From assembly GCA_902617625.1 (NCBI GenBank), contig CACMXJ010000001.1:77001-141000 (forward strand): a DNA stretch of 64,000 nt, read 5' to 3'. The DNA comes from an uncultured Pelagibacteraceae bacterium. GTDB taxonomy: Bacteria; Pseudomonadota; Alphaproteobacteria; Pelagibacterales; Pelagibacteraceae. Position 1 is the stretch's first letter, and each line of letters begins with the position of its first letter. Shown here in pieces: positions 37,791 to 39,277 of the stretch. The position numbers were made by a program, and so were the translations under genes. Under the pieces are notes generated by a model. That model worked only from the letters and a program-made list of their open reading frames with translations, had not been told where the DNA came from and did not search any database.

Positions 37791-38113
37791 CTTACATAGT
37801 AAATGATAAATGTATCAAATGTAAATTAATGGATTGTGTTGAAGTTTGTCCTGTGGATTGTTTTTATGAGGGAAAAAATATGCTTGTAATTAAACCCGAT
37901 GAGTGTATAGATTGTGGCGTTTGTGAACCAGAGTGCCCAGTTGATGCGATTAAAGCTGATACAGAACCTGGAAGCGAAAAGTGGTTAGAAATCAATAGTC
38001 AATATTCTGAAATCTGGCCGAATATAAGTGAGAAAAAAGATCCACCGTCGGATCATGAAAAATATAAAAATGAGCAAAATAAGTTTGAAAAATATTTTAA
38101 AGAAAACCTTTAA
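37787..38113 (+). CDS. fdxA: 7Fe ferredoxin (FdxA)
   Basis: A 108-residue ferredoxin with both [3Fe-4S] and [4Fe-4S] clusters. The cysteines visible are C9, C12, C17, C21 and C25 ([18 protein letters not shown]) and C40, C43, C46 and C50 ([15 protein letters not shown]), the FdxA pattern. The C-terminal tail ([15 protein letters not shown]) is also family-typical. It overlaps the TerB-like gene upstream, and carD starts inside its 3' end. The electron-transfer partner is unknown. Confidence 0.95.
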
Positions 38114-38939
38114 GACAAAATCCAAAACAAAAAAAGTAAGAAAAGTAATAAAAGCCAAAAAACCAAAAATTAAAAATATTAAAAAAAATAAAAAAAATAA
38201 AAAACATCCAAAAGTAATCTTAAAGTCTTCAAAAAAATTAATAAAAAAAAACGAAAAAAAAATTGAAACTAAGACAGAAAATTTAAGAATTCCTAAAAAT
38301 AATGAATTAAAACCTGAAATAAAAAAGGTTAAAAAACAAAGCACAGAAAAAAAAGAATACAAAATAAAAGACCACGTCGTATATCCAAAGCATGGGGTAG
38401 GACAAATTACTGAATTCAAAAAAATTAACATTGGAGGAATTGATGTAGAAACATACATCATAAAATTTGAAAAAGATAAAGCGAATGGAATGGTGCCCGT
38501 GAACAAACAATCTCATTTACGTCCATTATCTACAATTAACCAAGTTAATAAGAGTATATCTATTTTAAAAAGTAAGCCTAAAATTAAAAGATCTATGTGG
38601 AGTAGGAGAGCACAGGAATATGAAGCAAAAATTTCATCTGGTAAAATCTATGAACTTGCTGAAGTTGTAAGAGATTTAAATAAAGGAGATGATATAATGA
38701 TCGATCAGTCATATAGTGAAAGACAACTTTTTGAAAAAGCTTATGAAAGAATTATCTCAGAATTTCAAATAGTTTTGAATTTATCAAAAGATGATACACA
38801 AAAAAAATTAGATAAAGCTTTAAAAAGAAATATCAATAAAGAAGTAAAAGAGGAAAATAAAACTCCGAAAACTTCAAACAATAACGATTTACCTGTGGAA
38901 GAACCAATTTCAGATGATGAGGAGCAAATTGAAGAATAA
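38070..38939 (+). CDS. carD: CarD-family transcription regulator with a lysine-rich N-terminal tail
   Basis: The CarD/RID domain lies in the middle ([18 protein letters not shown], then [15 protein letters not shown]), followed by helices ([26 protein letters not shown]) that contact promoter DNA. CarD binds RNA polymerase beta and stabilises open complexes. I pick the ATG at 38070 (289 residues), which overlaps fdxA by 44 bp; ATGs at 38055 and 38028 are alternatives. About 95 residues before the domain are extremely Lys-rich and look disordered. The last 30 residues are acidic. A bidirectional terminator follows the stop immediately. Confidence 0.88.
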
Positions 38940-38980
38940 AAAAACGCCTCTCACACAAAAAGTTATGAGAAGCGTTTTTT
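38937..38980. terminator. bidirectional intrinsic terminator between carD and the polycationic peptide gene
   Basis: Nearly perfect hairpin: AAAAAACGC-C-TCTCA on the left pairs with TGAGA-A-GCGTTTTTT on the right, enclosing a loop of about 14 nt. The stem is bounded by A6 and T6 runs, so it can end transcription in both directions, for carD from the left and for the minus-strand 25-codon gene from the right. Confidence 0.85.
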
Positions 38981-38998
38981 ATAAAGAATACTAAGTTA

Positions 38999-39076
38999 TT
39001 ATCTTCTTCTTCTTTTCTTAGCTTTTTTCTTAGCTTTTTTCTTAGCCTTCTTTGCTTTTTTTCTTCTCTTAGGCAT
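38999..39076 (-). CDS. 25-residue Lys/Arg/Ala polycationic peptide
   Basis: An ATG at 39076 is followed by 24 codons made only of Pro, Lys, Arg and Ala: it begins MPKRRKKAKKAKKK and continues in KKKA steps to a terminal RRRR. Twenty of the 25 residues are positive. A strong Shine-Dalgarno (AAGGGAG) lies 8-9 nt before the ATG, a consensus -35 (TTGACA, 39159-39154) lies upstream, a stem-loop sits near the predicted 5' end, and a terminator follows the stop by 19 nt. It resembles lysine-rich histone H1-like tails or ribosomal tails; a nucleic-acid or polyphosphate counter-ion role is inference. Too short for most gene finders. Confidence 0.7.
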   Translation of the reverse strand: MPKRRKKAKKAKKKAKKKAKKRRRR

Positions 39077-39101
39077 CTTTAGCTCCCTTTTATTTAGTTA
39101 A

Positions 39102-39120
39102 ACGAATCAAAATGATTCGT
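39102..39120 (-). repeat. perfect inverted repeat in the leader of the polycationic peptide gene
   Basis: ACGAATCA-AAA-TGATTCGT, an 8-bp perfect stem with a 3-nt loop, 26 nt upstream of the ATG at 39076. If transcription starts at about 39124, as predicted from the upstream promoter, this hairpin sits 4-5 nt from the 5' end of the mRNA, where such structures protect against decay. It could alternatively be an operator. Confidence 0.6.
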
Positions 39121-39130
39121 AATTAACTTA

Positions 39131-39159
39131 TTTTTATTTTTTTATACACGTTATGTCAA
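39131..39159 (-). promoter_or_regulatory. promoter of the polycationic peptide gene
   Basis: On the minus strand TTGACA (39159-39154) is followed after 17 bp by TAAAAA (39136-39131), giving a predicted start near 39124, about 48 nt before the start codon. The -35 is perfect; the -10 is weak but AT-rich. Confidence 0.45.
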
Positions 39160-39277
39160 TTCTTTAATTAAAGTTTTAATTTTAAGAAAATAAAAATTAA
39201 AAACAAAAAATTTTTTATAATCTTAAGTGTAAAAAAGTTAATGTTTATGCGCTTTATAATCAAATTTTTTTATTCAA

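Follow-up and report, generated by a model that had tools for sequence, protein, structure and literature searches.

The 3' end of carD in an uncultured member of the Pelagibacteraceae is faced, on the opposite strand, by a frame of only 25 codons, and this locus raises the question of whether so short a frame is a gene and, if it is, what its strongly basic product might do. The window analyzed here is the whole stretch of 64,000 nucleotides that contains the locus (positions 77001-141000 of contig 1 of genome G000, 1.03 Mb in 27 contigs). A sequence-only reading of this DNA had proposed a complete miniature gene, with promoter, stem-loop, ribosome-binding site (RBS) and terminator, for a polycationic peptide resembling histone H1.

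The peptide gene and its signals

The coding sequence runs from ATG to TAA at 38999..39076 on the minus strand, on which the -35 element, hairpin and RBS of the gene are also located; its assignment is based on the frame, its conservation and a synonymous bias. Translation of 39076-38999 yields MPKRRKKAKKAKKKAKKKAKKRRRR, a peptide of 25 residues (3.13 kDa, pI about 12, charge about +19 over the 25 residues) which, as had been stated, contains beyond the start Met only Lys (13), Arg (6), Ala (4) and Pro (1). Among window frames of 20-60 codons it alone had a K/R/A/P content of at least 70%, and no frame of this kind arose in 60 dinucleotide-shuffled versions of the window. The RBS, AAGGGAG (39083..39089, minus strand), is found 6 nt before the ATG, and the sequence of this region, AGGGAGCTAAAG, is retained in most of the window's genus. 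It had been described as strong, and by duplex energy it was equalled by only one of the 57 window frames of at least 100 codons, each taken at its most favorable ATG.

Upstream of the gene, a -35-like TTGACA is present at 39154..39159 (minus strand), and TTGAC was found upstream in all genera examined. This part of the proposed promoter was confirmed, whereas the -10-like hexamer TAAAAA (39131..39136, minus strand), which is AT-rich as had been noted (TAAAAA/AAAAAT, 17-18 nt beyond TTGACA), is a poor match, and the promoter match by itself was not significant, one being found against a shuffle mean of 2.0. Within the window's genus, TTGACAT...TAAAAAAATAAAAAT is broadly retained. The perfect 8-bp stem-loop was located in the 5' leader at 39102..39120 (minus strand) and has a 3-nt loop; its sequence at 39120-39102, ACGAATCA-TTT-TGATTCGT, has a single occurrence in the window, against 0.00 expected. 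A terminator is likewise present, just beyond the range 38981-39160 first given for the gene. This intrinsic terminator (38939..38980, strand unassigned) consists of a 17-pair stem and a T-run, adjoins the carD stop codon and exceeds chance (shuffle mean 0.0); its nearly symmetrical stem probably serves carD as well as the peptide gene.

The convergent neighbor is a carD/cdnL-type gene (38028..38939, plus strand) with RID and CarD_C domains, and in SAR11 CarD the RID domain (Pfam RID, residues 111-167) is preceded by an N-terminal extension rich in lysine. The terminator stem, AACGCTTCTC, is retained across the genus. The 3' ends of the convergent peptide-gene and carD transcripts would be complementary at 38939-38980. 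At the Rfam gathering score only three tRNAs were detected in the window, and at the locus there were below-threshold matches only.

Conservation, coding selection and leader structure

It had been suggested to look for the same frame beside carD in other SAR11 genomes, where lack of conservation or frame-breaking substitutions would speak against a gene. In 78 Pelagibacterales carD loci, we examined the strand opposite carD up to 800 nt from its stop codon. Seven of the loci are cut off too early for a judgment (in three of them, L021, L093 and L096, the peptide start and frame are still visible), which left 71 assessable loci. A K/R-rich frame opposite the carD 3' end was found in 70 of these: 30/30 in the window's genus (g1), 22/22 in seven other genera of the family, 18/18 in the sister family (f2) and 0/1 in g12, a genus represented by one genome. 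This sole exception (L094, genome G414) retains the RBS, the start and most of the gene, and reading by eye places the break of the frame within eight consecutive A; this looks like a frameshift, which is either an assembly error or a real change. No such frame was detected in the 45 assessable carD loci of other alphaproteobacteria (47 taken; tblastn). Searching 289 alphaproteobacterial genomes with the 85-residue sister-family protein also gave no match, a result which is uninformative, as the set contained no positive control.

Of 397 genomes of the order, 219 contained an exact pattern of the RBS and first codons; all of these belong to the window's genus, and among the matches listed no genome had the pattern more than once. 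A reversed control pattern had no match in the 397 genomes. Of the genomes that lack the exact pattern, some are incomplete or contain a relaxed RBS, and the gene was present in all three loci checked from such genomes (L091-L093). In a named genome collection, the RBS and start pattern matched at least 120 stretches, and the 80 matches listed were all from Pelagibacteraceae, Pelagibacterales or Candidatus Pelagibacter. The DNA thus belongs to the Pelagibacterales (SAR11), in line with the earlier guess. Occurrence in viruses was set aside after one exact pattern gave 0 matches in viral_contigs.

To analyze the frame at the codon level we used the 230 of 265 loci that passed a frame filter. 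Those that failed were 27 non-SAR11 loci, five loci cut by a contig or stretch end, L094, and L087 and L089, two sister-family frames which the filter missed yet are intact. Among the 191 loci of the window's genus with the frame, a number that includes duplicates between collections, there are 94 different coding sequences, which encode 52 different peptides 21 to 41 residues long. When only genes for an identical peptide were compared, so that changes are synonymous by construction, 1, 0 and 49 variable sites fell on codon positions 1, 2 and 3, respectively. Between sequences that differ by a single base, 25 of 32 differences were synonymous, compared with an expected share of 0.19 for all changes and 0.33 for transitions (the pairs have sequences in common, and the 32 differences are therefore not independent); the seven nonsynonymous ones exchanged K/R (6) or A/P (1). 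Peptide length shifts by whole codons, whereas the leader just upstream shifts by single bases. Judged from these comparisons, the peptide gene of the Pelagibacterales is real and codes for protein, since its frame is conserved in 70 of 71 assessable loci. Thus, the search for non-conservation and broken frames did not refute the gene, and the earlier claim of a real miniature gene is borne out by a frame retained opposite carD throughout the order, with DNA changes that are mostly synonymous.

Peptides of the window's genus have 21-41 residues, most commonly 25 or 27. Their ends are conserved (M[AP]KRRKKA... and ...RRRR/RRKR), and the part between them is K-rich. Lengths are 21-24 residues in g8, g9 and g10 and 31-38 in g5, g6 and g11, and genus g7 of the window's family has an intermediate form of 34-58 residues with KKAPAKK and RKPAKK. 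On the same strand and in the same place, the sister family has a proline-containing form of 40-91 residues, which starts with MEELKVIFAKA... or MEDLK... and continues with KAAPKKK and KAAKRKP repeats. In composition these sister-family forms are H1-tail-like, in agreement with the H1-like product suggested earlier. Lys/Ala/Pro-rich repeats without a folded domain were seen in the sister-family and g7 forms; the window peptide contains K, R and A, with Pro only at Pro-2. The sister-family locus shares the hairpin box and TTGAC with the window's family. We infer that long and short forms are of common descent because position, TTGAC, the GAATCA...TGATTC hairpin and convergent carD are common to both; such descent cannot be proven from the sequences, which are too repetitive. 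We consider the 25-mer most plausibly a miniature relative, by position, of an H1-like polycation.

Neither Pfam nor NCBIfam contained a family for the 25-mer, a 30-mer or the 38-58-residue forms, and the 85-residue form had only a chance Pfam match (E 8.5) and none in NCBIfam. As these libraries and PDB gave no match, the resemblance to H1 is one of composition and repeat style. In the window's genus, non-K/R residues after position 5 were spaced by 3 or 4 in 170 of 217 cases, and of 51 distinct peptides, 55% showed a helical moment of these residues above that of 95% of shuffles; the peptides are mutually related and hence are not 51 independent tests. This helix signal was found in 0/8 sister-family peptides and was weak in other genera. 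The Ala/Thr spacing in the K-rich middle would suit a cationic helix formed upon binding.

A stem of 7-9 pairs with loops of 2 to 5 nt was detected by script in 139 of 141 distinct leaders of the window's genus. One of the remaining leaders had 5 pairs, and the other (L070) was scored as lacking a stem that is present by eye, the script having started at a later TTGAC. Among 77 distinct hairpins from g1, g8, g9, g10 and f2, six core positions pair in 73/77, 77/77, 77/77, 77/77, 76/77 and 76/76, and the next pair outward is A-T in 47, G-T in 22 and G-C in 3, with a G-U pair at this position in g8, g9 and g10. In g5, g6, g7 and g11 the AATCA box is retained and the stem moves to TCACTTA/TAAGTGA-type arms. 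Most of the stem barely varies and so provides little information on pairing. We favor an RNA hairpin rather than a DNA site for a protein because of the G-U pairs, the varying loop length and the stem swapping. The palindrome was found in 15 of 37 genomes searched, in 14 of them as a single site at this locus (G014 has a second site with a different center), and an operator of a larger regulon was rejected on this ground. In leaders of g5, g7 and g11 (L101, L103, L104, L106, L107, L109-L112 and L114), inspection by eye revealed CTCC upstream of the GGAG RBS, with which it could pair. It is possible that in these three genera a hairpin hides the RBS, leading to translational control with feedback by the peptide.

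Literature searches, with most subscription journals outside their scope, found no description of the peptide. The accessible portion of a study of structured RNAs of P. ubique (Meyer 2009, PMC2704228) does not mention carD or lysine, and that of an iron-limitation study (PMC2864753) does not mention the locus. The GMSC small-protein catalogue is described as taking frames from 30 nt (PMC11364881), and the peptide may be listed there without annotation. This gene, apparently missed by curated family libraries, is conserved throughout an order that ranks among the most numerous groups of bacteria.

Possible functions of the peptide

We give roughly even chances to the reading we prefer, in which the Pelagibacterales gene product is a stand-alone H1-tail-like polycation with DNA as its likeliest partner. 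The peptide would act like the disordered tail of histone H1, binding nucleic-acid phosphates without sequence specificity and then shielding and condensing them, with DNA as the first-choice partner and RNA or ribosomes second. Judging from composition, polyanion binding would be hardly avoidable because three-quarters of the peptide is Lys/Arg, and it would be non-specific because length and repeat style are loose, as in H1 tails and Hc2. The H1-like polycation would have been reduced to 21-41 residues in the window's genus; the sister family has the longer form. With its strong RBS, retained promoter and 5' hairpin, the gene would presumably yield the peptide steadily and in large amounts from a short, stabilized mRNA. 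We infer that the peptide is translated, abundant and nucleic-acid binding, and that its partner is DNA over RNA. HU-family proteins were detected in 61/61 genomes; thus, the peptide would supplement HU and not replace it.

The peptide gene is tail-to-tail with carD in both families. Its other flank is an acyl-CoA synthetase in 51 of 58 loci of the window's family and in 0/20 loci of the sister family, whose flanks are short. CarD of several other alphaproteobacterial families (L239, L241, L251, L257, L283) has an H1-like Lys/Ala/Pro N-terminal tail, and Myxococcus CarD is reported to be functional with its basic tail replaced by histone H1 (PMC8156234). To judge from the neighborhood alone, the peptide and CarD may be functionally linked, and a shared terminator would equally account for this neighborhood. 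A bolder proposal, which we consider speculative and distinctly unlikely, is that SAR11 compressed an H1-like chromatin protein to ~25 residues, the smallest stand-alone 'histone tail' yet seen and universal in the order, and that it joins CarD and RNA polymerase in trans in organizing or transcribing the nucleoid of a cell type which is among the most numerous in the ocean. The part played in trans is modeled on the fused basic tail of Myxococcus CarD.

The product might instead be a lineage-specific ribosomal or ribosome-assembly peptide seated in an rRNA pocket, which we regard as possible if rather unlikely. A precedent is bL37 of Mycobacterium, described as a 24-residue protein that lies buried in rRNA and is helical in its N-terminal part (PMC5876184), and the conserved ends, the helical K/A spacing in the window's genus, the strong RBS and the one copy per genome among the matches listed all fit such a role. 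However, a range of 21-41 residues within one genus and repeat-like growth to 40-91 residues in the sister family would be unusual for a pocket-bound protein, and the locus has no ribosomal-gene link. In addition, phmmer found 0 PDB chains at E up to 10, a search of low power with short biased queries.

It appears improbable that the gene acts chiefly through its RNA, as a small or antisense RNA directed at the mRNA of convergent carD, and that the peptide is of minor importance. The predicted RNA of the peptide gene is structured (z = -3.96), its predicted 3' end meets the carD stop codon, and antisense RNA is reported to regulate carD in mycobacteria (PMC8820732), but the terminator stops the RNA before the carD coding sequence. 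Strong codon-level selection, and length changes by whole codons in the frame versus single bases in the leader, also argue against it, and a transcript that is only non-coding was rejected on codon-level selection and synonymous bias. RNA action could be an added role beside the peptide.

Polyphosphate kinase (PF02503) is patchy in SAR11, being detected in 19/61 genomes (relatives G000-G060). Polyphosphate had been named among possible targets, and AlgP of Pseudomonas, an H1-like protein, is reported to be located at polyphosphate granules (PMC9239181). A polyphosphate-binding peptide of this kind is compatible with the presence of ppk in the window's own genome, but only 6/19 near-complete relatives have the gene, and one complete genome (G012) carries the peptide (L007) and has no ppk match. 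With ppk missing from 13/19 near-complete genomes, polyphosphate is unlikely to be a general target; it was rejected as a general function, the earlier suggestion is weakened, and we consider this explanation very improbable. Finally, that the frame arose by chance in purine-rich intergenic DNA, for which the A/G-rich tract and AT-rich genome might speak, has a negligible probability and is refuted by the shuffles, the conservation and the synonymous bias.

If, in line with the preferred H1-tail-like polycation, the peptide coats nucleic acids, it would bear on charge balance and DNA-ribosome mixing in streamlined, tiny cells. Modeling of the minimal cell JCVI-Syn3A is reported to involve abundant cationic proteins in charge balance and DNA-ribosome mixing (PMC12858079). 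The graded series from ~90 to 21 residues at one locus represents a natural experiment on the minimal working polycation.

Comparison with known systems

Bacterial H1-like proteins (Chlamydia Hc2, the Bordetella type and Pseudomonas AlgP) are similar to the SAR11 peptides in being Lys/Ala(/Pro)-rich, repeat-built and variable in length, with no folded core, and the KAAPKKK and KAAKRKP units of the sister family are much like their KPAA repeats. Hc2 is described as having 165-237 residues, its size varying by repeats (PMC2848022), and AlgP as having a 154-residue repeat domain (PMC9239181). Unlike Hc2 and AlgP, the peptide of the window's genus has 21-41 residues, is without the prolines of the repeats and was matched by no family model. 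With bL37, reported only in actinobacteria and missed until cryo-EM (PMC5876184), it shares small size, strong positive charge, a likely helix and a history of being overlooked by annotation; however, there is no sequence match, and the SAR11 peptide is far more variable in length. As in Myxococcus xanthus CarD (PMC8156234), an H1-type basic disordered segment is tied to the CarD family. The basic tail is fused in Myxococcus, whereas SAR11 encodes it separately, in a gene convergent with carD, and SAR11 CarD itself bears its own lysine-rich N-terminal extension.
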